Translations under genes and position numbers: made by a program | The notes under the pieces: model-generated | Told to the model about the DNA's origin: nothing | Databases searched by the model: none | What the model saw: the letters and a program-made list of their open reading frames with translations, nothing else | Shown: piece after piece, positions 1,269-49,772 of the stretch | Layout of the letters: each line of letters begins with the position of its first letter | Numbering within the stretch: position 1 is the first letter of the stretch | Assembly (NCBI GenBank): GCA_028819435.1 | Contig: JAPPLK010000114.1 | Span: 1-53,722 of the forward strand | DNA from: Nitrospira sp. | GTDB taxonomy: Bacteria > Nitrospirota > Nitrospiria > Nitrospirales > UBA8639 | Direction: 5' to 3' | DNA: 53,722 bases

Positions 1269-1505
1269 ATGTCCGTCAATCTTTCCATCAAAAACGTTCC
1301 GAAAGAATGGGTGGAGCACCTGCGGCAACGCGCCAGGAAACACCATCGTTCGCTCCAGGGTGAATTACTTTCCATTTTGGAAGACAGCCTGAACCAGCAG
1401 GACACGATTTCCCCACAACGTCTGTTGTCAGAATTACGGCAACGAGGCTTACGCACGCCCAAGGAATCAGTGACAATCGTGAGGAAAGACCGGGATGGCC
1501 GTTAA
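1269..1505 (+). CDS. VapB/FitA-like antitoxin (ribbon-helix-helix)
   Basis: A 78-residue protein starting MSVNLSIKNVP. The N-terminal strand followed by two amphipathic helices is the FitA/Arc-type ribbon-helix-helix DNA-binding fold. The charged C-terminal part (about residues 40-78) is where such antitoxins wrap the PIN toxin. The start at 1269 is preferred over the ATG at 1257 because GGAGG (1259-1263) lies five bases upstream of it. The 3' end overlaps the toxin gene by 11 bases, so the two are translationally coupled. Expected role: neutralise the toxin and repress the promoter just upstream. Confidence 0.8.
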   Translation: MSVNLSIKNVPKEWVEHLRQRARKHHRSLQGELLSILEDSLNQQDTISPQRLLSELRQRGLRTPKESVTIVRKDRDGR

Positions 1506-1878
1506 GGTCATTGATACGTCTGCCTTGGCCGCGGTTGCGTTTGCCGAACCCGACGGCCAACGGATCGCGGTTCAATTGGAAGAGCATGACTTGATCGCTC
1601 CCCACCTGTTACCCTTTGAGTTGGCGAACGTCTGCCTTACCAAGATTCGAAGGCATCCGGTGAAGAGGGAGTTACTGTTGGCTGGTTATGAGATGATCAG
1701 TCGCCTGCCCTTGACGTTCATGGTCGTCAACATGACAGAGGTCGTGACCCTCGCCGAAGCCAAAAAATTAACAGCGTATGACGCGTCCTTCTTATGGCTC
1801 GCCCGGCAGTTGGACGTCGAATTGGTGACGTTGGATAAGACGTTAGCAAAACAGGTGAGTCCCCGAAAAGCCAGATGA
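1495..1878 (+). CDS. vapC: PIN-domain toxin (VapC-like RNase)
   Basis: A 127-residue PIN-domain protein, the normal length for VapC. The N-terminal VIDTSAL carries the first metal-binding Asp, FELANV supplies the conserved Glu, and TAYDASFLWLA plus LVTLDKTLA hold the C-terminal acidic residues of the active site. VapC toxins are Mg-dependent endoribonucleases that usually cut tRNA or rRNA loops; the target here cannot be read from sequence. The gene overlaps its antitoxin by 11 bases. All expected active-site residues are present, so the module looks functional. Confidence 0.85.
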   Translation: MAVKVIDTSALAAVAFAEPDGQRIAVQLEEHDLIAPHLLPFELANVCLTKIRRHPVKRELLLAGYEMISRLPLTFMVVNMTEVVTLAEAKKLTAYDASFLWLARQLDVELVTLDKTLAKQVSPRKAR

Positions 1879-1913
1879 ATCGTTCCTCCCAGGGGTTCCA
1901 TCTATTGTATAAT

Positions 1914-1952
1914 GGGGGTTCACCTCGGCACGACAAGGTGCTTTTGTTTCGG
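1914..1952 (+). repeat. Toxin-downstream repeat, copy A
   Basis: Begins GGGGTTCACC and continues CACGACAAGG then CTTTTGTTTCGG, starting about 35 bases after the first PIN toxin stop codon. Related copies follow the second PIN toxin (2669) and HicA (4087). Confidence 0.6.
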
Positions 1953-1985
1953 GATTTGACTCATGACGGCGACCATTTTATACTC

Positions 1986-2249
1986 ATGCCTATGAGTAAG
2001 CGGCTGCAAGTGATACTCGACGACAAGGAAATGCGTGACATTCAACGGACCGCCAAACGGCAGCAGATGACGGTGGCGGAATGGGTGCGGCAAGCCTTAC
2101 GTGCCGCGCAACGCCAGGTGCCGCTGACCGACACCAAAAAGAAGCTGGGAGTGGTTCGCGCGGCGGCCCGGCATGATTTTCCGACCGGCGACATCGATCA
2201 AATGCTTCGAGAGATCAATCAAGGGTATCAAATCGAGACCCCTTCATGA
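1986..2249 (+). CDS. Antitoxin of a second VapBC-type module (ribbon-helix-helix)
   Basis: A protein of about 87 residues beginning [13 protein letters not shown]. The strand-helix-helix pattern ([34 protein letters not shown]) is typical of CopG/Arc-type antitoxins, and the acidic, flexible C-terminus fits the toxin-binding part. The open frame extends to 1875, but those codons overlap the preceding toxin gene and repeat copy A, so the start is placed at 1986 or the ATG six bases later. No strong SD is visible. A TATAAT box at 1908-1913 may be its -10. The stop overlaps the next start by four bases (ATGA). Confidence 0.7.
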
Positions 2250-2656
2250 TTTTCATCGACTCCAACGTCCCGATGTATCTGGTTGGAGCGACCCATCCCA
2301 ACAAAGTTCTCGCCCAACGAGCCCTAGAAACCTGGGTCGCTCATGATGAGCGGCTGGTTACGGACGTGGAGGTCTTACAGGAAATCCTGCATCGGTACGT
2401 GGCGATTGCTCGGCGCGAGGCCATTCTTCCGGCGTTTGAGGCCTTGACGGGTATTGTGGACGAAATCTTTCCCGTCGAGCGACGGGACGTGGAGCGTGTC
2501 AAGGATATCGTGCTTTCCACCGAACGATTATCTGCCCGAGACGCACTCCATCTTGCCATCATGGCACGTCATGGGATCAAGCGGATCATGAGTTTTGATG
2601 AAGGTTTTGACGGTGTTCCAGGGATTATTCGCATGACCGACAAATCTCTTGGCTAA
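2246..2656 (+). CDS. PIN-domain toxin of the second VapBC-type module
   Basis: A 136-residue PIN protein. [11 protein letters not shown] carries the first catalytic Asp, [12 protein letters not shown] the conserved Glu, [12 protein letters not shown] the third acidic residue and IMSFDEGFD the last. It belongs to the PIN subgroup whose C-terminal half reads S-A-R-D-A-L-H. The start overlaps the antitoxin stop by four bases, a standard toxin-antitoxin arrangement. The predicted activity is RNA cleavage; the target is unknown. It is only distantly similar to the other PIN toxin in this island, so this is not a tandem duplication. Confidence 0.85.
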
Positions 2657-8542: not shown

Positions 8543-9915
8543 ATTCCGACGCCCCGGCGGTGAAACTCGATAGCTTGTCTCCTCGCGAAATCGTCGAAGT
8601 CCTCGACCGGTACGTGATCGGACAACGCGACGCCAAACGGATGGTGGCCATCGCCTTGCGAAATCGATGGCGCCGCCAGCAGCTCAGTCCGGAACTGCGT
8701 GAAGAAATTTTCCCGAAGAACATCGTCATGATCGGGCCGACGGGCGTGGGCAAGACGGAAATTTCCCGGCGATTGGCGAAACTGGCCGACGCCCCGTTCA
8801 TCAAAGTCGAAGCGTCGAAGTTTACCGAAGTGGGGTACGTGGGGCGCGACGTGGAATCGATCATCCGTGACCTGACCGAACAGTCGGTCAACCTGGTGAA
8901 AAGTTCGTCGCTTCAGCGAGTCGAACGGAAGGCCGAAGACGTGGCCGAAGATCACGTGCTCGATTTGTTGCTTCCTCCGAGTCCGTCTCGAACCGCGGAG
9001 GGGCAGGAGAATGAGCCGGGGCAACCGACGCCGGGTGACGCCACGCGACAAAAGCTACGCAAGCAATTACGGGAAGGCGGGCTGGATAACCGGACCGTGG
9101 AGATCGAAATCAAGGAGCGCGGGCTGCCCGTCGGGATTATCTCCAACGTCGGAGGCATGGAAGAACTGGAAAATCATTTGCGCGACATGCTTGGCGGGTT
9201 GATGCCCGGCAAGAAGAAAAACCGGGTCATGAAAATTCCCGACGCCCTGAAATATTTTGCACAGGAGGAAGCGCAGAAACTGATTGACATGGACGAAGTG
9301 ACGCGCGACGCCATCGAACGGGTCGAGCAATCCGGCATCGTCTTTTTGGATGAAATCGATAAAATCGCAGGCCGGGAGAAACACATGGGGCCCGACGTGT
9401 CACGGGAAGGCGTGCAACGGGATTTGCTGCCGATTGTCGAAGGAGCGACCGTCAACACGAAATACGGGCCGGTGAAGACCGACCATATTCTGTTTATTGC
9501 CGCCGGAGCGTTTCACGTGGCCAAGCCGACTGATCTGATTCCCGAGTTGCAGGGCCGGTTCCCCATTCGAGTCGAGTTGGAACCCTTGACCAAAGACGAC
9601 TTGGTGCGCATTTTGACGGAACCCAGGAACGCCCTGGTGAAACAATATCAGGCCTTGATGAAAACCGAAGACATCACGCTGGACTTTACGAAGGAAGGCA
9701 TTGACGCCATTGCAGCCATTGCCGTGGAGGTCAACGATCGTACGGAGAATATCGGTGCGCGCCGGCTGTTCACGATCGTGGAGCGGCTGCTCGAAGAAGT
9801 GTCCTTCGAGGCGCAGGAACTGCAAGAGAAAAAAGTGGTGATCGACGCACCGTACGTGCATGAACATTTGAAGGAGATCGTCAAGGACCAGGATCTGAGC
9901 CGGTACATCCTGTAG
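8539..9915 (+). CDS. hslU: ATP-dependent protease HslVU, ATPase/unfoldase subunit
   Basis: A 458-residue Clp/Hsp100 AAA+ ATPase that unfolds substrates and feeds them to HslV. Visible landmarks are [14 protein letters not shown] at the N-terminus, Walker [10 protein letters not shown], the pore motif GYVG, the I-domain (about residues 110-240), Walker [21 protein letters not shown] (sensor and arginine finger region) and the C-terminal LSRYIL that docks into HslV. Full length. It is the last gene of the trmFO operon; a palindromic repeat begins 33 bases after its stop. Confidence 0.97.
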
Positions 9916-9947
9916 AAACGCAAGCCGTCGTTTCCGCCGTGAATTTA

Positions 9948-10026
9948 CTCCCTCTCCCTTGGTGGGAGAGGGCTGGGGTGAGGGGGAAGAAGAACTGGAT
10001 TCCCGCTAACGACTGCGGGAATGACA
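9948..10026 (+). repeat. Two dispersed palindromic repeats
   Basis: 9948-9986 is CCCTCTCCC, a short loop, GGGAGAGGG and a tail GCTGGGGTGAGGGGG, also found at 35990 and 43695. 9995-10026 is the TGGATTCCCGC...GCGGGAATGACA palindrome, found again near 11655, 27143 and 29424. Both can fold into hairpins and may act as terminators or mRNA stabilisers between hslU and argB. Confidence 0.7.
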
Positions 10027-10038
10027 AGTGGTTGTCCC

Positions 10039-10932
10039 ATGAACAGACTGATCAAGAAAGCGGACGTCCTCGTCGAAGCGTTGCCCTACATCCGGACGTT
10101 TGCGGGAAAGACCATCGTCATCAAATACGGCGGGAAAGCCATGGTTGAGGATGAACTGAAGGATGGCTTTGCCGAAGACGTGGTGCTGATGAAATACGTC
10201 GGCCTCCATCCCGTGATCGTGCACGGCGGCGGGCCGCAGATTGATCAAATGCTGTCCCGGCTGGGCATGAAGCCGACCTTCAGACGAGGCGTCCGGGTCA
10301 CGGATCAAGCCACCATGGACGTGGTCGAAATGGTCCTGGGCGGAAAGATCAACAAGGAAATCGTGACGATGCTCAATCAACACGGGGGGAAAGCCGTCGG
10401 CATCACCGGAAAGGACGCGCAGTTCATCGTGTGCAAACCGTTTTCCGCAAAGGCTTGGGCACAGGGGTTGAGCCACGAGCCTCACGGTCAGGCGGATGAA
10501 GAGTACGGCTTCGTGGGGGAGGTCGATCGGATCGAACCGCAGATCATCACGAAACTGCAGCAGGAGAACCTGATCCCGGTCATCGCTCCCATCGGTGTCG
10601 ATCGCAAAGGCAAACCGCATAACATCAACGCGGACCTTGTGGCCGGCGCCGTAGCCGGTGCATTGAAAGCGGAAAAACTGTTGATGCTCACCGACGTTCG
10701 GGGCATTCGGGGTGCCAACAACCGGCACCTGCCCACGGTGTCCAGGAAAGACGTCGAACGCATGGTGAAGAAGGGCACGATCAGTGAAGGCATGCTGCCC
10801 AAGGTGCGGGCCTGTTTAGCCGGTATCGAAGCCGGAGTGCAAAAGGCCCACATTATTGACGGCCGGATCGAGCACGCCGTCTTACTGGAGATTTTCACGG
10901 ACAAGGGAATCGGCACGGAGATCGTGGCATGA
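10039..10932 (+). CDS. argB: Acetylglutamate kinase
   Basis: A 297-residue amino acid kinase catalysing the second step of arginine synthesis, phosphorylation of N-acetylglutamate. IVIKYGGKAM carries the phosphate-contacting Lys, VIVHGGGPQID binds substrate, GGKINKEIV and NINADLVAGAVA are conserved, and TDVRG plus EGMLPKV close the active site. The start at 10039 is chosen over 10021 because the 18 extra bases belong to a dispersed repeat. The other arginine genes are not in this window. Confidence 0.95.
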   Translation: MNRLIKKADVLVEALPYIRTFAGKTIVIKYGGKAMVEDELKDGFAEDVVLMKYVGLHPVIVHGGGPQIDQMLSRLGMKPTFRRGVRVTDQATMDVVEMVLGGKINKEIVTMLNQHGGKAVGITGKDAQFIVCKPFSAKAWAQGLSHEPHGQADEEYGFVGEVDRIEPQIITKLQQENLIPVIAPIGVDRKGKPHNINADLVAGAVAGALKAEKLLMLTDVRGIRGANNRHLPTVSRKDVERMVKKGTISEGMLPKVRACLAGIEAGVQKAHIIDGRIEHAVLLEIFTDKGIGTEIVA

Positions 10933-21556: not shown

Positions 21557-21731
21557 GTCGTGAAAAGTATGGAAAAGTCTCTGACCGCTGTATCAGGAAA
21601 TTCTACAGGGAGAGACCTACAAGATGATGCTTGAAAATGTCAATGCCGTTTGATGATAAATCAGGCATTGTTCCGGAGGGTGTGGCGATACGCTCTTGGG
21701 AGGCCAAACACCGGCTCAGCTCGGCCCCGCT

Positions 21732-22060
21732 CTACTCACGCAGCGCGCCGAAGGCGCCGGCCACGCCGCCGCGCTCGAACACACCTGCGGCCTCCCCGGC
21801 CTCCGGTCCGTAGAACGCGCCCTCCACCTGCCCCAGCGTGTGGTTCACGTCAGTGCCGGCGAGGTTGTTGCCGTCCGTCGGCAGACCAAAGGTCCCGTTG
21901 GCGCGACCGGTAGATCGGTCCATGCGAACCCGGGCGGGCCGCTATAACGCTGGCCCTGGGCCACCGCCCCGGCTGAGGGGGCGAGGCCATCCAGCGTCAG
22001 GGCCAGAGAGTGGTCGTCGAAGTCATAGACGAGCATGGAGCGGCCCTCCACCTCAACTCC
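21732..22060 (-). pseudogene. Decayed fragment of a TbpB-like beta-barrel domain protein
   Basis: Two overlapping frames give one continuous domain. The first (to about 21905) reads SMLVYDFDDHSLALTLDG; the second continues NGTFGLPTDGNNLAGTDVNHTL, then VEGAFYGPEAGEAAGVFERG and GVAGAFGALRE before a stop. The G-A-F-Y-G-P and G-V-F-E-R pattern is the C-terminus of transferrin-binding-protein-like eight-stranded barrels. A frameshift near 21905-21925 and the missing N-terminus mark it as broken. It lies directly downstream of the spondin/barrel gene and shares its very high GC. Confidence 0.65.
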
Positions 22061-22104
22061 GGCCGGGGCTTGCGGGAAGTGAACAAACGAGGTAGCGCCC
22101 CAGG

Positions 22105-25100
22105 TCAGAAGCGTCGTCGTACCTCCAGCATGACGCCGTGATCGGGCGCACCGGCGGTGGGCTCACGCCAGGTAGTCTCCAGGTGCGCGTCGAGCCCCGC
22201 GCCTGCAGCGAGTCGCATGCCCGCGCGCCAAGTCACGGCCCGCGTATCGGTGAGCGAGAATCCGGCATAGGGTGTAGTGGTGCCGCTGGTGCCCGGTGTG
22301 GCGAACCCGTAGCCCAGCGCTGCCTCCAGCCTCGGCTCATAGCGCGTCGCCGCCGCGGCCGGCGACCTCGACACGCCCTCGTTCCATAGCCGTGACACGC
22401 CGCTGGCGGCCACGCCTAAGGCCGGCGAAACGCTCAGCGCCAGGCCTCGGCCGTCCGCACCCGGGTCGACGCGCACCAAGCCGGCCACGCCCCACTGCCG
22501 GTAGCTGCCGCGGCCGAGAAGTGTGCGGGCGCGCGCCTGTATCGTCAGCCCTTGGGCCGGATGGCTCCAGCGCACGCCACCGCCGAGTTCCAGGCCCGTA
22601 CCGGTCTCGCCGTCACCGCCGTCGTGGCGCACGCCGACCTCCAGGACCGGGACGACGACCGAGCCCGAGACGAGGGTCCAGGTCTGTTGTCCTTCCAGAG
22701 CCATGCGCAGGCGTTGTGCGGCTGCGTTCAGGGCCACCAGTGGGCCGTCGCCGTCGGCCTCCCACTGCGTGATCCACGCCTCTCCCTTGAGCGCCAGCAC
22801 CATCTGCCCGGCCGCCAGCAGCGTCCCACGGGCTCCGGCACCCGCGCTCCACGCGGTCGCCTCACTGTCGTACTTCCCGACCGTCGCGTCGTTCAGGTGT
22901 ACCTCGCCGCGACCAAGCGTCGCGGCCGCCCACCCTGTCAGGCGCTCGTGCGCCGTCCACCCCAGGTAGGGCATCAGGCTCGTCATCCGGCTTTGGTAGG
23001 TGCCCGTCACCGATGGTTCGCCACCTTGGTCAGTCCAGTCGAAGGTGCCCCGCGCGTGCGACAGCGCGAGGCCTCCCAGCAGGCGCTCGCTGAGCCGGAC
23101 ATCCGCGCCGAGGTGGGCGTTGAGCATGCCGCCGTCCCAGTCGGTGACGCGGCCGCCCGAGAGCGCGGTCCAGTCCACCGCGCCCCATAGCACCGGGGCC
23201 AGTCCCCCGGCGTCGCCGGTGGCTGACAAGGGCAGGACGAACTCGCTACCCGCGAGGAGCTGGGGTAGGTCGGGCAGGGCCGCGCCGGTCGCCAGCGTCC
23301 CCGCAAGGTTCGCTACAGCGGTTTGCAGCTCGTATCCGGCCACCTGCAACCGGGCTGCCGTGCGGGTCGCGGCCAGCCGCTCGCTCACCGCGGCGAATGC
23401 GCTTCCCGCGGCCAGCCGCGCGGCCTCGGGCAGCACCGTCCGATGCACCCGGTTCAGCCGTGACACGGTGGCGGCGTCACGCACCTCGACGGTCACCTGG
23501 GTCTCCGCCACGCGCTCCCGGGAGTCGGTGGCCTGCACCGTCAGGGTGTAGCGGCCCGTCGCCTCGCCGGGGCCGACATAATGCACCGCGCCCGTGGCCG
23601 CATCGACCTGGAACAAGCCGTCTCCCCCAGACGCGAGGGTGTAGGTAACCCCGGTTCCCGCCGCGCGTACCACCCCGGGGGCGCCCCCGGGGTCACGCAC
23701 CGGCGCTGGTCCCACCAGGTTCTCCGCCAGCGTGAACGCGAATCGCGTCGCCACAAACTCTGGCCCAGACTCGTCGGGACCACTGCCGTCATCCCCGCCA
23801 CCCTTATCGTCATCGGCGACCGTCACTGTGACGGAGTCCGCCGTAACCCGCGCATAGTCGCCGGTGCCGCTCACCGTATGGGTAATCGAGACGGTATCTT
23901 GCGTCGTGTCGGCGTCCTGCTGCGGCGTGACTGTCACTGTCTGCGCCTGATTCCAGTTTCCGCTCGTTCCGCCAGTAAAGGTCAGCGTGACGCTGTCCGC
24001 CGGCGGGCCGCTACCTGTGTGTACCTTCACCACCGCATCCTCGCTGGTTGCGGTTACCGTCACGCTGGTCGTCGGTGCCTTGGTCAGCACCATTGTGTAG
24101 GTGTCCGCTGTCCCGCCCTCGGTCAGGCTGAGCGTGCCTTTTGAAACCATCACCCCGGCCACCGTCCCGGTGTCGTCGTCGGTGATGCTGAAACTCGCGG
24201 TGCCGGATGACGTGGCCCCACCGCCGAGACCCGAGTGGGTGGGGGTTCCGAGGGCTACCGTTACCGTCTCGGCAGTACCCTCGTCAATCGTATCGTCCCT
24301 TGCGGACAGCGTGAGGGTCGCCATCCGCGCGCCCGAGCCAAAAACAATATTGGCGCTGCCGCTGTTCAGGTTGTTGTAGGTCACACCCGGCGTGGGCGTG
24401 CCCGCGAGCATGTAGTCCGTGTTGCGCCGGGCAGCGCCGCCGAAGGTTAACGGCACCGTCAGCGACTCGCCCGCTGCCAGCGCCCGGTTCAGGGTCACCG
24501 TGATGGTTTTCGTGCCGCCGGTCTCGGGAATGTTTCCCTCGGCTGCGGAGAGCGTGACCTGGGTGGAGTCGTTGTCGTTCACCGTCACCGAGGCCGAGGA
24601 CGGACTGACCACCGTGTAGCCGTTGCCGCTGGCCACGGTCACGGTCACCGAGCCGTTCGGTTCGTCGGTGTTGTCGTTCACCGTGGCAACGCTGTAGGTG
24701 GTTGAGGTCGTGCCCGCGTCGATCCGGACGGTCTTGCTGCCCTGGTGGGTTGTGGCGACGAAGTCCCTGCCATTGTTGCTGTTCTCTGAGACGTTCAGGT
24801 TGACCGTCAGGTTCGACGACGGCGCGGGATTTGCCGAGACGGTGAAACTCGCGCTGGTACCCTCGGTGACCGGGCCACTTCCGCGTACCGACAGTTTCAC
24901 CTGATTCATGAGTTTGAAGGTCATCCTTGCCACACGAACGTTTGTAAATTTGCCCTTTCCCTTCAGGCTGCTGATTGCGACATGGGGGTTGCTGGCAGGA
25001 TTGCTCAGCGACCAACCAGTCCCTTCCTCGGTGCCGGCGTCGTAAGCAAACAAGTCCACGGTGCGAGAAGAGTACCAGTTCCCGTTTCCGTCCAGGAGAG

Positions 25101-25665
25101 AAAAACCCGAGAGGCCCACGAACCAGTCCGGGGAGGGGCCGAGCATGGATAAAATGGTAAAGAGAGGATAATCCTTGCTGAATTCAACGGTTGTCGTCTT
25201 TGTAGCCTCACCGCCTCCGGACACGCTGAAACGTATAATCGTTTTGACGTTGTTGCGTTCTCTTGCTGCTACAAGTTCACTATTAAATCTTGTCGTGGAG
25301 CCGATTTCCGCTACATTCTCCACGCCAGCGGTGGCCAGGCTGCCCGCTGCCCAGAAAGTCTCATCGTTGTTGTGCGCGGCGCCTATCAACGTCGTGAAAT
25401 GTGCGCCGCCTGGAGCCCCAGGCGGCGTACTTTGCGCATTCCAGTTGCCCTCGAACGTTATGGTATAGGTGGCCGTATTCTGCGCGCGCGCCGGTTCCGG
25501 TTTTATGCCGAGGGCCATGCAGGCAGCAAGAAGAAGTCCGGTGATGATGCTGAAGGTGCTTCGAGAAATGCTGAGGAATCGCGGCTGAGGCGCACGGCCC
25601 CGTGCACGGATATCGTCACTGCGCCACGGAAAGAACAACCCACCGCCTGACTTCAGTTTCGCCAT
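22105..25665 (-). CDS. Spondin-domain, Calx-beta and beta-barrel surface protein
   Basis: A 1186-residue exported protein. A hydrophobic stretch at about 38-52 after a long basic N-region ends in PARAQ, a likely signal cleavage site. Residues 64-255 resemble a spondin_N domain (TYTITFEGNWN, DWFVGLSGFSLLDGNGNW, RTVDLFAYDAGTEEG). About 258-620 hold three Calx-beta-like repeats with Asp-rich ends (NDND, DDDT, ADDD). About 640-735 is cadherin-like (FAFTLAENL, LFQVDAATGAVHY). About 810-1186 is an autotransporter-type barrel with alternating aromatic strands, ending in Phe. GC content and codon use are higher than in neighbouring genes, suggesting transfer. Probably a calcium-dependent adhesin; no strong SD was seen. 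Confidence 0.75.
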   Translation of the reverse strand: MAKLKSGGGLFFPWRSDDIRARGRAPQPRFLSISRSTFSIITGLLLAACMALGIKPEPARAQNTATYTITFEGNWNAQSTPPGAPGGAHFTTLIGAAHNNDETFWAAGSLATAGVENVAEIGSTTRFNSELVAARERNNVKTIIRFSVSGGGEATKTTTVEFSKDYPLFTILSMLGPSPDWFVGLSGFSLLDGNGNWYSSRTVDLFAYDAGTEEGTGWSLSNPASNPHVAISSLKGKGKFTNVRVARMTFKLMNQVKLSVRGSGPVTEGTSASFTVSANPAPSSNLTVNLNVSENSNNGRDFVATTHQGSKTVRIDAGTTSTTYSVATVNDNTDEPNGSVTVTVASGNGYTVVSPSSASVTVNDNDSTQVTLSAAEGNIPETGGTKTITVTLNRALAAGESLTVPLTFGGAARRNTDYMLAGTPTPGVTYNNLNSGSANIVFGSGARMATLTLSARDDTIDEGTAETVTVALGTPTHSGLGGGATSSGTASFSITDDDTGTVAGVMVSKGTLSLTEGGTADTYTMVLTKAPTTSVTVTATSEDAVVKVHTGSGPPADSVTLTFTGGTSGNWNQAQTVTVTPQQDADTTQDTVSITHTVSGTGDYARVTADSVTVTVADDDKGGGDDGSGPDESGPEFVATRFAFTLAENLVGPAPVRDPGGAPGVVRAAGTGVTYTLASGGDGLFQVDAATGAVHYVGPGEATGRYTLTVQATDSRERVAETQVTVEVRDAATVSRLNRVHRTVLPEAARLAAGSAFAAVSERLAATRTAARLQVAGYELQTAVANLAGTLATGAALPDLPQLLAGSEFVLPLSATGDAGGLAPVLWGAVDWTALSGGRVTDWDGGMLNAHLGADVRLSERLLGGLALSHARGTFDWTDQGGEPSVTGTYQSRMTSLMPYLGWTAHERLTGWAAATLGRGEVHLNDATVGKYDSEATAWSAGAGARGTLLAAGQMVLALKGEAWITQWEADGDGPLVALNAAAQRLRMALEGQQTWTLVSGSVVVPVLEVGVRHDGGDGETGTGLELGGGVRWSHPAQGLTIQARARTLLGRGSYRQWGVAGLVRVDPGADGRGLALSVSPALGVAASGVSRLWNEGVSRSPAAAATRYEPRLEAALGYGFATPGTSGTTTPYAGFSLTDTRAVTWRAGMRLAAGAGLDAHLETTWREPTAGAPDHGVMLEVRRRF

Positions 25666-25940
25666 TACCGTATAGAATTGTTTCTGCCCCGATTTATAAT
25701 ACCTTTACGCACTCTGAATCAACCGGCATGTATTTTTACACCGGAGACTTTTAGAAGTCACCCTGTCAAGGGAGAGCATTCTTTTTTCCCGGCCATTTCC
25801 GGTTTCGAATTTACGGCAGGCCTTCGCCACATTTTCCGACGTCTGCTTTGTGGTCGGGTTCTCTCGCGTCGCCGATTTCTTGCAAAGACGGGTGCGTCTG
25901 CGTATGCTCAATCGTACGTCAGGATAGCGCAGGTCACGGT

Positions 25941-44942: not shown

Positions 44943-46103
44943 ATGATTTCTTCATATTATTACAAAGATAATTACAAGGGTAAACAATCAGACGAATGGG
45001 AGTTTGAAGAAACTGCGTTGAATAACGTAAACCTGATTGTCGGTGCCTCTGGGTCTGGTAAAACCAGGTACCTAAATACAATTTTTAACCTTTCGAGTTT
45101 TATTGCACGTGGTCAAGAACGTGGAGAACCGTTTAGGCCTTGATCTTGGAGGCTAACCGTAAAAACCGAAGAATATGAATATATATACGAATATGACGCT
45201 GTAATAATCAATGGCAAAAATCAAATCAAAAAAGAAGTGGTAAAGCGTAAGCGTATGGGTTCTCAAAATGAACTGGACGTCCTGATTGATCGAACACCTG
45301 ATAACTTTATTTTCTGCGAAAGCCCGCTGCCAAAACTCCAACTTGATAAACCAGGAATCACTCTTCTCAAAGAAGAGGAAAAGATCAGTCCCCTTTATGA
45401 AACCTTCTCAAAAGTGCAAATAAGAAAGTTCAATGATGAAGGGTTAAAGGATGCGCTCGTCTACCAGAATGTGACACCGGAATTACTCAATCTTTCCAAA
45501 TCAAATGATGGGCTGTTGGCATTATGGAAATCCCAAAGCGCCCTTAGTGCCAAGCTATTTCTTTTAAAGGAAAAGTTTCCCGAACAGTATAACTTGATCG
45601 TAGGTGCCTTCAAACAAGTCTTTACTTCCATTAAAGACTGTGAAGTTGCCATACTCGAAAATCCTCCAATAAGTATTCAGGTTAATGGAGTGGTCCCCGT
45701 CTTTCTCATAAGAGAAGAGAAAGTAGGCAAAACGATACCGTTGCCTGAACTCTCATCAGGAATGCAAAAAGTTTTATTGATTCTTGCCGACATCATTACC
45801 TTACCAAAAGGTTCAATCTATATAATCGATGAATATGAAAACTCACTCGGAATAAATGCCATGGATTTTCTCCCGGAATTTTTGGCTGCGCATAGCACAA
45901 ACATTCAATTTTTTGTTACGACTCATCACCCCTACTTGATTAACAGTATGCCCATGAAAACGTGGAGAGTCTTTCACAGGGATGGCTCAAAAGTATTTAT
46001 TAAAGGTGGCGAAGAGTTTGAGCAGAAATATGGCAAATCAAAGCAAAAGGCTTTTGTTCAACTCATTAACGATCCTTTTTATTCCGGCGATGAATTGCAA
46101 TGA
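44943..46103 (+). pseudogene. AAA ATPase of an ATPase-TOPRIM defence pair, interrupted by one in-frame TGA
   Basis: The frame is open from 44943 to 46103 (386 codons) except for a single TGA at 45141-45143. Before it lies Walker A VGASGSGKT (residues 33-41). After it come the ABC-type signature LSSGMQKVLL, Walker B IYIIDEYENSLG and the switch-like FFVTTHHPYLINS, as in AAA15/OLD-type ATPases. No frame change is needed to join the halves. The gene is therefore either recently inactivated by one nonsense change, read through, or affected by a base error. Its stop overlaps the TOPRIM gene by four bases. Confidence 0.8.
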
Positions 46104-46926: not shown

Positions 46927-47811
46927 ATGAAAAAGCAGAATGAAAAATCGTTTGGCGAATTCCAAAAGGAAGGTCATCTTTGGATAACCCTTTCGACAGG
47001 TGAGTACTATCCAGACGTGCTTCCCCTTGCCTGTGAATTATATAAGCCTGTACTTGTGACATTTGGGCAACTCCTCAAGGGTGCGCATTCATCAACTGAT
47101 TTATTCACGGCAATAGCAGAGACCACCCCACAATGGATGCGAATACAGTTGTGTCGCGTCTTCCGAAAATATGTGAGCCCCGACACACCCGTTGAGATGC
47201 TGAAGAAAAAAAGTGCAGCGGCCGACATTTGTGACCGTTTCGGCAAGAGATTTCGGAGGATTGCTGAGGTTCAAGCCAAGTTCCAATCACGCCCAATGCC
47301 TGATGAAGCATTATGTGCTGTGCTATGGGAGTACAAAGACAGGGGACAAAAGGGTTACGATCTAACCGAACGACTTTTCACGATCGTACGAGAACACTTC
47401 AAGTCACTGGAAATAATTGGACCAGAGTGTGCAGGAAAAGACATCATCTTAGGCGAACTGTTCGAAGACTATCCCAAAGCTGACCGTCCAGTGGACTTCG
47501 TCCTTCTTCATAAAGGCAAGCCTCTAGCTGTCGGACTAGCCAGGTACGACTCTGATCGTGGAGGAGCGCAAGAAGATGATAGAACCGGACAGTACCGAGA
47601 CTGTGCAAGCGAAGTGCTTAGTTACGCAAAGAGCAGGAACATACCTTTGAAGGTCATTTTCCTTAATGATGGGCCAGGATTACTTCTTGGCTCGATGTGG
47701 CGAGACTATGCATACATAGAGGACTCTTGGCCTAGATCGGTCAAGGTCGTGACGCTAAGAATGGTTCCTGAGCGCATTACTCTTACGTGGCTCAAATCCA
47801 AGGGATTTTGA
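46927..47811 (+). CDS. Putative type II restriction endonuclease-like protein
   Basis: About 294 residues from ATG 46927 (MKKQNEKSFGEFQ); a TTG at 46807 would add 40 doubtful residues. The C-terminal half contains RPVDFVLLHKGKPLAVG, then LARYDSDRGG and QEDDRTGQYRD, and PLKVIFLNDGPGLLLGSMW. A strand with Asp followed by a second strand is the general layout of a PD-(D/E)XK core, although a clean E-x-K is not visible. The gene ends two bases before a DNA methyltransferase start, the classical restriction-modification arrangement. The function is inferred from this context. Confidence 0.55.
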   Translation: MKKQNEKSFGEFQKEGHLWITLSTGEYYPDVLPLACELYKPVLVTFGQLLKGAHSSTDLFTAIAETTPQWMRIQLCRVFRKYVSPDTPVEMLKKKSAAADICDRFGKRFRRIAEVQAKFQSRPMPDEALCAVLWEYKDRGQKGYDLTERLFTIVREHFKSLEIIGPECAGKDIILGELFEDYPKADRPVDFVLLHKGKPLAVGLARYDSDRGGAQEDDRTGQYRDCASEVLSYAKSRNIPLKVIFLNDGPGLLLGSMWRDYAYIEDSWPRSVKVVTLRMVPERITLTWLKSKGF

Positions 47812-47813
47812 CC

Positions 47814-49772
47814 GTGGCAACAGGCGTACCCAATAAATCTCATCTTAATCGAACTGAGAGGGCGAGTATCGCCTACAAAGGCAAGGAAGATCCTTCCTCT
47901 ATCCTTAACGGCGAACGGGAGCCTTTCGAGAAGATCCATTCAGGCACTTCGGATAAGCGCCTGTACTTTGGTGAGAACCTTTTGGGCCTAAGAGCGCTCC
48001 TTTCAGATCCAGACGTCGCAGGCAAAGTGACTCTTGTCTATATTGATCCACCATTTTCGACACAGGGAACGTTTCTCTCCAGAAAACAGCAGAAAGCATA
48101 TGAAGACAATCTATCTGGTGCGAGTTATGTAGAGCATCTGAGAGCACGTCTCATTCTTCTTCGAGAACTGCTGTCAGACAAGGGATCAATTTATCTGCAT
48201 CTCGACGAGAACATGGTTTTTGAAATGAAGCTTATCATGGACGAAGTCTTTGGTTTTTCCAACTATCGAAACCTAATAGTACGGAAGAAATGCAACCCCA
48301 AAAATTATACCCGAAAGGCTTATGGCAATATCGCTGATTTCATTCTCTTCTATTCAAAAACGGATAACTACGTTTGGAATCGTCCAGTCGAATCCCTTTC
48401 GGAAGAGAGCAAAAGAGAATACCATTATATCGAACCCCAAACAGGACGGCGCTATATGAAAGTCCCTATCCATGCTCCGGGAACACGCAACGGGGCAACT
48501 GGGGGGGCATGGCGAGGAATGCTCCCTCCACCAGGAAAGCATTGGCAGTATACTCCAAAGACGCTTGATGAAATGGATGCACGGGGAGAGATTTTCTGGT
48601 CAGGCAACGGCAACCCCCGAAGGAAAGTCTATCTAGATGAACATTCTGGGGTTGGTCTTCAGGATATCTGGTTGGATTTTCGTGATGCCCACAATCAGAA
48701 CGTTAAGATAACTGGGTATCCAACTGAGAAAAATCCAGATCTTCTTCGTCGAATCATAGGGGCATCATCGAATCCCGGAGATTTGGTGTTGGATTGTTTC
48801 GTTGGTTCTGGAACGACTTTAGCCGTTGCCGATGAAATGCAGCGACGTTGGATTGGTATGGATAACAGCCTAGAATCTCTGTCCACCATATTGAAACGCT
48901 TTGAGCGCGGCCTTTTCCTAATGGGGGATTATGTTCAGCAACGCCAAGACATAACGGAAGGAATTCCTCAACAACCAACGCTGTTTGATACGCTTGATGT
49001 AGGCGCGACATTGCCTGCTTCAATTGAGAATGGAGAACATAAGCCTATCGAGGATTTCTCGATGTTTGTCGCTAAGGACACTCCGTCAGAAGTCTATTCT
49101 ATTGTAACGACATGGAAGCAGAGAAATAATCTGTTAGGCGCACATAAGAGCAAAAGACTGCCAGTGGTTTCGGAGCCTACCAATTTTGCGAATATATGTT
49201 ATCAATTACACAGAAGAGATAAAAAGCTCGCCAAGATAATTGATTCAGTAGGTCCGTGTACTTTGGTAAACGGCCACGCTGGCTTCGACTTTTTGGTTGA
49301 TGCTATCATTGGACAGCAACTTTCCAAACAGGCTGCAGCTACTATTATTAAGCGCTTCCGAAGGTTATTTCCCTCTAGGCGTGCTACGACAAGTAAGTTC
49401 TTGGGCCTTCCAAAAGAAAAAGTGCTCAAGGCTGGTCTATCAAAGCGGAAGTACGATTACATCAGGGACTTGGCCAGAAAGATAGAAGATAAGCAGTTGA
49501 GACTGTCTCGGCTAGGAGAAGAGGATAATGCTACGGTCCGGCAGGTCCTGAAGAAGGTGAAAGGCATAGGTGACTGGACCGTTGACATGTACTTGCTTTT
49601 TGGCCTTGCAAGGCTTGATGTATTTCCTGTTCATGATCTAGCCCTCAGAAAAGTTATGTGTAAGGTATATGGATTCGATGGCAATGATTCGGAAGAAGCC
49701 AGAAAAATAGCTGAAAAATGGAAACCGTATCGTAGCGTGGCTTCCTGGTATCTGTACAAGTTCGGTGCGTGA
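47814..49772 (+). CDS. Fusion of a beta-class DNA methyltransferase and an AlkA-type DNA glycosylase
   Basis: A 652-residue two-enzyme protein from GTG 47814. Residues about 45-375 are an amino-methyltransferase of beta class: VTLVYIDPPFST (motif IV, DPPF at 78-81) comes before VLDCFVGSGTTLAV (motif I, about 325-338). DPPF favours N6-adenine methylation. Residues about 450-652 are a HhH-GPD glycosylase: FLVDAIIGQQLSKQAAATI, LSKRKYDYIRDLA, the hairpin VKGIGDWTVDMYLLF and FPVHDLALRK with the catalytic Asp near 608, then KWKPYRSVASWYLY. Both halves keep their key residues and no frameshift is needed. The domain pair follows a restriction-like gene, suggesting modification plus base excision. Confidence 0.88.
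   Translation: MATGVPNKSHLNRTERASIAYKGKEDPSSILNGEREPFEKIHSGTSDKRLYFGENLLGLRALLSDPDVAGKVTLVYIDPPFSTQGTFLSRKQQKAYEDNLSGASYVEHLRARLILLRELLSDKGSIYLHLDENMVFEMKLIMDEVFGFSNYRNLIVRKKCNPKNYTRKAYGNIADFILFYSKTDNYVWNRPVESLSEESKREYHYIEPQTGRRYMKVPIHAPGTRNGATGGAWRGMLPPPGKHWQYTPKTLDEMDARGEIFWSGNGNPRRKVYLDEHSGVGLQDIWLDFRDAHNQNVKITGYPTEKNPDLLRRIIGASSNPGDLVLDCFVGSGTTLAVADEMQRRWIGMDNSLESLSTILKRFERGLFLMGDYVQQRQDITEGIPQQPTLFDTLDVGATLPASIENGEHKPIEDFSMFVAKDTPSEVYSIVTTWKQRNNLLGAHKSKRLPVVSEPTNFANICYQLHRRDKKLAKIIDSVGPCTLVNGHAGFDFLVDAIIGQQLSKQAAATIIKRFRRLFPSRRATTSKFLGLPKEKVLKAGLSKRKYDYIRDLARKIEDKQLRLSRLGEEDNATVRQVLKKVKGIGDWTVDMYLLFGLARLDVFPVHDLALRKVMCKVYGFDGNDSEEARKIAEKWKPYRSVASWYLYKFGA

Follow-up and report, generated by a model that had tools for sequence, protein, structure and literature searches.

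Why would a Nitrospira cell make a protein that begins with a domain best known from animal extracellular proteins and ends in what looks like an outer-membrane barrel? The question is raised by a gene on the minus strand of contig JAPPLK010000114.1, a stretch of 53,722 nucleotides (hereafter the window) that is part of a 2.6-Mb Nitrospira genome (G000). The encoded protein joins a putative leader, a Spondin_N domain, Calx-beta repeats, a cadherin-like stretch and a predicted beta barrel. This architecture is well supported; each of its parts is ordinary, and their combination and its occurrence across bacteria obtained from sponges are new as far as literature searches tell. The reading that we favour with some confidence, from sequence and predicted structure, is that of a self-exported, calcium-dependent surface adhesin or host mimic, which would carry a spondin tip in a sponge-associated Nitrospira. 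The gene is laid out as follows:

22105..25665, minus strand: whole gene, a single open frame of 1186 amino acids, with an orthologue in genome G009 (locus L087)
25480..25665, minus strand: leader, residues 1-62, long and basic, with a hydrophobic helix at 35-51 and an ARA-Q export-type cleavage site, recognised by eye
24910..25479, minus strand: Spondin_N (F-spondin) domain, residues 63-252, from Pfam, PDB matches and fold
25126..25128, minus strand: D180 of the PSPDW motif, equivalent of the F-spondin calcium ligand D325, by alignment with PMC3117680
25027..25041, minus strand: D209-AGT-E213, equivalents of the calcium ligands D354 and D358 (D358 via its main chain), by alignment with PMC3117680
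24565..24906, minus strand: first Calx-beta domain, residues 254-367, by fold match to CALX CBD1 (3ead)
24172..24564, minus strand: second Calx-beta domain, residues 368-498, in the best Pfam stretch
23800..24171, minus strand: third repeat, residues 499-622, beta-rich, with no Pfam match of its own, matched by repeats of its own and sister genomes
23467..23772, minus strand: cadherin-like stretch, residues 632-733, after an acidic Gly/Ser linker, from a Pfam match under the cut-off
23347..23475, minus strand: long helix preceding the barrel, residues 731-773, from predicted models
22105..23346, minus strand: predicted outer-membrane beta barrel, residues 774-1186, ending in VRRRF-stop, from models, fold comparison and alignment

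The Spondin_N profile (PF06468) matches residues 65-236 with an E value of 3.5e-38 and 132.1 bits (cut-off 24), covering positions 1-174 of the 194 of the profile, and the NCBIfam spondin domain NF038123 scores 88.6 bits (cut-off 40). When solved structures were searched with phmmer, spondin-1 (3q13, 5.9e-23) and spondin-2 (3d34, 1.9e-21) were the sole relatives by sequence at E <0.001. A predicted model of the domain superposed on mindin (3d34) with a Z score of 20.2 and 2.9 A over 180 residues at 28% identity, and the helices that it places at 113-121 and 125-136 fit the F-spondin-domain fold, a C2 variant with a helical insert. Model confidence, given as the predicted local distance difference test (pLDDT), was 66-89 in ten-residue blocks across residues 61-210 and 43-51 across 211-240, the part that holds E213. 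According to passages of PMC3117680, the F-spondin domain is a calcium-binding C2 variant with sulphate sites. The equivalents of its calcium ligands, D180, D209 and E213, are all present in the window protein, together with the PSPDW and DAGT[DE] motifs. Profile search, structure prediction and calcium ligands thus agree with the spondin-type domain named in the preliminary description of the locus. Among bacterial spondin domains, D180 is found in 87/87, D209 in 86/87 (one is truncated) and the full triad in 83/87; the conservation of PSPDW is partly built in by the pattern used in the scan, that of DAGT is not.

Behind the spondin domain, the Calx-beta family (PF03160) scores 33 bits against a cut-off of 27 (E 6.9e-8, best stretch 364-498), and a Calx-beta fold is matched by CALX CBD1 (3ead) with Z 12.4 and 2.1 A over 105 residues, so that the Calx-beta repeats read earlier from the sequence are borne out by both. 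The third repeat is predicted with low confidence. The Cadherin family (PF00028) reaches 24.3 bits at 670-728, under its cut-off of 28.8, and we therefore call this stretch cadherin-like only. No tandem repeats were found in the window. At the gene, the search for promoter-like sites gave none (0.4 in shuffled sequences) and that for terminator-like sites gave two (3.7 in shuffled sequences).

The barrel lies outside the reach of Pfam and NCBIfam in the window protein and was recognised by its predicted fold. With VIA-align, the model of the whole protein matched the autotransporter translocators EspP (8bnz), Hbp (3aeh) and AIDA-I (4mee) at Z 19.6, 18.9 and 18.1, respectively, and a model of the barrel alone at 20.6, 19.4 and 18.8. 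Across all the translocators compared (EspP, Hbp, NalP, AIDA-I and BrkA) Z ranged from 15.5 to 20.6, with EspP, Hbp, NalP and AIDA-I at about 18-20. As modelled, helix 731-773 followed by a C-terminal barrel would correspond to the layout of a type Va translocator. The C-terminus, VMLEVRRRF, is an aromatic beta-signal that is the same in the G009 orthologue; paralogous barrel frames end in F or W, and 12 of the 18 full-length barrel relatives outside the genus end without an aromatic residue in the alignment. At the other end of the protein, the leader helix appears in the predicted model with a pLDDT below 50. The autotransporter-like barrel of the preliminary description thus has its counterpart in a predicted-fold match to type Va translocators, and the large adhesin proposed there, made of spondin, Calx-beta and barrel, is supported by sequence and predicted fold. 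An adhesin of the type I secretion system (T1SS)/RTX kind was considered and set aside, with no RTX family among the Pfam matches of the window protein.

Relatives of the spondin domain were sought in named genomes by tblastn with five aligned domains, which gave 564 relatives, the best 80 of which were examined. By title, all of these 80 are metagenome-assembled genomes (MAGs), and they belong to nine phyla (NCBI rank of the title). Forty-nine carry sponge-study names, 2 coral names and 29 are unplaced, in a count that has no free-living background outside Nitrospirota. The sponge names comprise 17 jk18x bins, a prefix given in the text of PMC9531527 for Ircinia bins in the part concerned; 17 RHO, COS, CAR or APA bins, names that fit the sponges described in passages of PMC8163846; and 15 SB06xx bins, a prefix of which only SB0677 is tied to a sponge paper, in an excerpt of PMC12203066. 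The two coral names bear IP30a, a coral-skeleton bin prefix (PMC11070183).

The 80 loci hold 83 spondin frames, 19 of which end in a window-type barrel and are spread over four phyla (Nitrospirota 1, Gemmatimonadota 8, Bacteroidota 3, Pseudomonadota 7). Locus L101 may be a twentieth, its spondin domain and barrel lying in adjacent frames on either side of a run of N. Pfam scans covered 19 barrel proteins (the window's own plus 18 of the 19, with L147 omitted for its N) and 50 of the 64 other frames. Partner domains are of adhesion kinds, namely Ig-like, cadherin-like, fn3, PKD and Calx-beta types: Big_9 and Cadherin_5 each occur in 14/19 barrel proteins, and fn3 (12/50), Calx-beta (11/50) and cadherin (10/50) in the barrel-less frames, six of which (6/50) carry a sorting tag of the type IX secretion system (T9SS). 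Such unlike exits for the same domain argue that it acts outside the cell. In 23 relatives whose genomes were scanned whole, 1 to 3 matches were found in each. It is conceivable, and we put it forward tentatively, that the spondin domain is a common module of host recognition or host mimicry that bacteria living in marine sponges, perhaps also in corals, have exchanged with one another. If so, the same calcium-binding tip would be mounted on different exits (an autotransporter-like barrel, a T9SS tag, perhaps plain secretion) in nine phyla, and much of the sponge microbiome would show its host one animal-matrix-like face.

From the sequence and the model we infer how such a protein would be exported and placed at the surface, what its stalk would do, which partner it would bind and how the cell would benefit. 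The leader would direct the protein across the inner membrane. Helix and barrel at the C-terminus would then insert in the outer membrane and deliver the N-terminal part to the outside, in a type V-like manner. The calcium-binding Calx-beta and the cadherin-like repeats would form a stalk, with the spondin domain, a C2-like calcium-binding beta sandwich, as its exposed tip. In calcium-rich sea water the most likely partners of this tip would be the extracellular matrix, the cell membranes or the glycans of the sponge, and the contact would either anchor the cell in its host or make it resemble host matrix.

Several observations weigh against this reading. The match of the barrel fold is not exclusive, since CymA (Z 18.1), FhaC (16.6) and OmpG (15.3) come close behind the autotransporters, and the TonB-dependent receptor PirA ranks first by Foldseek E-value. 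Confidence in the models is middling, with a mean pLDDT of 57.6 for the whole protein and 69.5 for the barrel alone. Classical autotransporters have a 12-stranded barrel; the barrel-only model has 18 strands, with confidence lower towards the end, and the autotransporter matches span about residues 730-1097, with five more predicted strands beyond. In Pfam and NCBIfam searches neither PF03797 nor TIGR01414 matched the window protein, and PF03797 was found in 2/19 barrel proteins. Mindin is an integrin ligand according to passages of PMC6484411; its integrin-binding LEV reads VEF in the window protein and the Glu is present in 40/87 bacterial domains, so that integrin binding would not be expected as a general property. 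The habitats of 29 of the 80 relatives were judged by name style only and those of 32 more by name fit, 484 weaker relatives lie outside the count, and bacteria with no tie to sponges carry spondin domains as well. Within the genus, the gene is at this place in 2/14 genomes, a third genome having another spondin protein elsewhere, so that members of the genus can live without it.

The alternative that survives best, which we regard as unlikely and yet worth keeping in view, is that spondin and Calx-beta domains target other bacteria or extracellular polysaccharide, in aggregation or in a biofilm of the mesohyl, and not the host. In its favour, biofilm adhesins commonly contain Calx-beta, cadherin-like and Big_9 repeats. 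The occurrence of spondin domains on Persicobacter plasmids and in Pseudoalteromonas (part of the text of PMC6316408) also speaks for it. Mindin itself binds bacteria and lipopolysaccharide, through its thrombospondin repeat (TSR) part and not its spondin domain, according to PMC6484411 in the sections concerned. Short, weak types of the domain, with best matches of 21-43 bits, are present in 13 other Nitrospirota genomes, and strong ones in G035 and G047, which belong to other genera and lie outside the sample of 395 Nitrospirota genomes (the G035 frame is broken by a TAG). Within that sample, however, matches above 100 bits are confined to the genus of the window, where G000, G009 and G002 carry them (3/14 against 0/381 outside), and the closest relatives, taken as the best 80 of 564, belong, to judge by their names, to MAGs obtained from hosts.

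The place of the gene in the genome bears on how it was acquired. Two further features are needed here:

21732..22060, minus strand: decayed remnant of a Slam/TbpB-like lipoprotein gene in two frames, within the same insert as the spondin gene, open in G009
21645..25767: insert missing from seven other species of the genus, its edges uncertain by ~100 bases

In G009, of the same genus, the gene occupies the same position, with otsB on one side and pheA on the other, 82-84% identical (82% over the full length), and the neighbouring genes, otsB, GH65 and pheA among them, are 90-96% identical. The G009 locus corresponds to VYFB01000052.1 of Nitrospira sp. SB0677_bin_15, where a spondin match lies at the same coordinates; sponge Nitrospira reads have been matched to the name SB0677 in a passage of PMC12203066, and SB0677 is the one sponge link that we have for the genus. 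In seven other species the otsB-pheA gap measures 231-722 bases and the site is empty; in G007 and G011 the two genes are on different contigs or far apart, and otsB was not found in G002, G008 and G010. Synonymous divergence (dS) between G000 and G009 is 0.248 for the gene, 0.244 for otsB and 0.399 for pheA. The pairwise ratio of nonsynonymous to synonymous divergence (dN/dS) stays below 1 throughout (whole gene 0.37, barrel 0.22, repeats 0.37, spondin domain 0.61); the protein is conserved in the two species, and the spondin tip, the part taken as exposed, changes fastest. In a tree of otsB and pheA, G000 and G009 are not sisters (p = 0.02 in the approximately unbiased (AU) test; two genes). 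The simplest history, on this two-gene tree, is one insertion before the split of G000 and G009, after which G001 and G013 lost the insert, though a transfer to this same site may also account for the pattern. Seventeen direct and 15 inverted pairs of short repeats were found round the insert, none clearly bounding it. The remnant lies between the gene and otsB; its counterpart in G009 is an open frame of 331 amino acids (about 9084-10080 of locus L049) whose end matches TbpB_B_D at 27.1 bits (cut-off 26) and whose Slam-lipoprotein match, at 30.3 bits, is under the cut-off of 80. It appears, then, that the insert encoded two surface proteins.

The preliminary description had also taken the gene as much richer in GC than its surroundings and, from this, as recently transferred. 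The first statement holds for the repeats and the barrel and not for the spondin domain. The gene as a whole has 66.4% GC against 57-61% for the ten other window genes; the spondin part has 55% GC and 0.63 GC at third codon positions (GC3), the barrel 73% and 0.84, and the repeats a GC3 of 0.75-0.86, compared with 0.70-0.745 for the ten other genes. A similar step within the gene is seen in G009 (0.61 versus 0.83). Seventeen further frames that contain the barrel or the repeats, from the same genome and its sisters, have a GC3 of 0.68-0.89, and 14 of them (all except L019, L056 and L060) exceed 0.745, the yardstick being the window's own genes and not the housekeeping genes of the sister genomes. 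Since barrel and repeat frames are mostly GC-rich across the genus, high GC appears to be a habit of this protein family there, and it is the spondin tip that looks added. That the whole GC-rich gene came lately from a high-GC donor, as first thought, is thus very improbable: the absence of the insert from seven species, the GC contrast and the otsB-pheA tree, which could mean transfer, speak for it, and against it stand the same site and flanks in G009, a dS equal to that of otsB, the GC-rich frames elsewhere in the genus and further loci in G000 and G001 whose barrels show 71-73% identity. Conservation in close relatives with native codon use was found in part, with the gene at this place in one of 13 relatives. 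An older acquisition is plausible, given that the 4-kb insert is missing from seven sister species and that the spondin domain groups with domains of Dadabacteria. Carriage by phages or plasmids was examined and rejected: 50,697 phage records gave 0 matches, none of 15 pattern-fitting stretches in IMG/VR was confirmed, and plasmid matches were restricted to the spondin part in four Persicobacter records. Least probable of all is a released enzyme or effector. Autotransporter passengers are often cleaved, which speaks for it; against it, the window protein has no catalytic Pfam domain and the partner domains of its relatives are mostly structural, GSDH and DPBB_1 being among the isolated exceptions.

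Barrel and spondin domain differ in their distribution. Within the genus the query is matched in all 14 genomes (G000 among them), and in each of these a match lies in the barrel region; beyond the genus 5/45 relatives match, four of them at spondin loci, with no barrel among the matches listed, which do not include the row of G030. Spond_N is present in 3/14 genomes within the genus (G000, G009 and G002) and 5/45 outside. Two further barrel copies, at G000:C42:57-1904 and G001:C37:1-1776, are 71-73% identical to the barrel of the window protein; their N-terminal parts are lost to a run of N or to the end of the contig. In G010, a one-contig genome, a barrel-family match at 2109101-2110258 of contig C1 lies within an open frame of 13,364 amino acids, and others in this genome reach 12,361, 9,287 and 9,184 amino acids; these long frames are possible giant surface proteins.

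The tree of the spondin domain comprises 89 rows, two of them animal domains, and 185 columns of a short domain, with support from the Shimodaira-Hasegawa-like approximate likelihood ratio test (SH-aLRT). The domains of G000 and G009 grouped with eight domains of Dadabacteria (SH-aLRT 97), whose frames show no window-type barrel (L095 runs off its contig). Outside the genus, the barrel is nearest to those of L140 and L151, of Gammaproteobacteria (34%). A spondin domain near Dadabacteria and a barrel near Gammaproteobacteria suggest domain shuffling of the two, as far as sequences tell. Against shuffling, AU tests did not reject descent of the spondin domain within Nitrospiraceae, with p values of 0.25 when the domains of G000, G009, G035, G047 and G002 were held together, 0.35 with G035 and 0.53 with G002, a constraint under which the tree in fact came out slightly ahead; a Dadabacteria origin therefore stays a lead. 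Phyla on the tree are clustered and mixed, with 18 changes against a least number of 8 and 49 when shuffled, and such mixing can also come from paralogues and misbinned contigs.

Elsewhere in the window, a low-GC stretch (39-49%) encodes an N6/N4 DNA methyltransferase fused to a HhH-GPD DNA glycosylase domain (47787-49772, plus strand) and an AAA ATPase like AriA (45237-46103). The unusual fusion and the ATPase make this stretch a possible defence island. Two PIN-domain genes at 1495-1878 and 2246-2656 (1495-2656, plus strand) perhaps encode VapC-like toxins.

How sponges recognise and retain their microbes is an old question. Few sponge lineages encode secretion systems able to deliver eukaryotic-like proteins (passages of PMC8163846); the window protein has a host-type domain and a likely exit in one polypeptide, and, as this is a single domain with solved animal homologues, the idea is open to direct binding tests. 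The spondin domain is listed, in a part of PMC4224354, among the domains confined to matrix proteins in the human proteome, and bacterial spondin domains bear on the origin of the animal one.

Among known systems, the eukaryotic-like proteins of sponge symbionts (ankyrin, tetratricopeptide repeat (TPR), cadherin, fn3 and Calx-beta) share Calx-beta and cadherin domains with the window protein. Both are enriched in sponge microbiomes according to passages of PMC9531527 and PMC8163846, with Cadherin_4 and Cadherin_5 depleted in several hosts in the former and lateral transfer of sponge-enriched genes described in the latter; the word 'spondin' is absent from both texts, and in the literature searched (open-licence PMC, mostly by title) no paper describing spondin domains from sponge symbionts was found. 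The sponge symbiont 'Ca. Synechococcus feldmannii', of a different phylum, has animal-type fibronectin-III and cadherin domains joined to an autotransporter domain, as described in part of PMC6506613, a text that does not use the word 'spondin'. NF038123 makes bacterial spondin domains an already named family, as a domain model that says nothing on barrel, host or function. To mindin (3d34) and F-spondin (3q13) the likeness is one of fold, of the PSPDW and DAGT[DE] motifs and of calcium ligands; 83/87 bacterial domains are without Cys and so lack disulphides of the F-spondin type, and the window protein differs from both in its partner domains and its joined barrel. With the type Va autotransporters EspP, Hbp, NalP, AIDA-I and BrkA, the protein shares a putative N-terminal leader and passenger, a predicted helix followed by a barrel and a C-terminal Phe, and differs from them in the lack of a direct PF03797 match and in about five extra predicted strands. 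A beta-helix is the usual passenger among type Va autotransporters, whereas the passenger of the window protein is made of beta-sandwich repeats.

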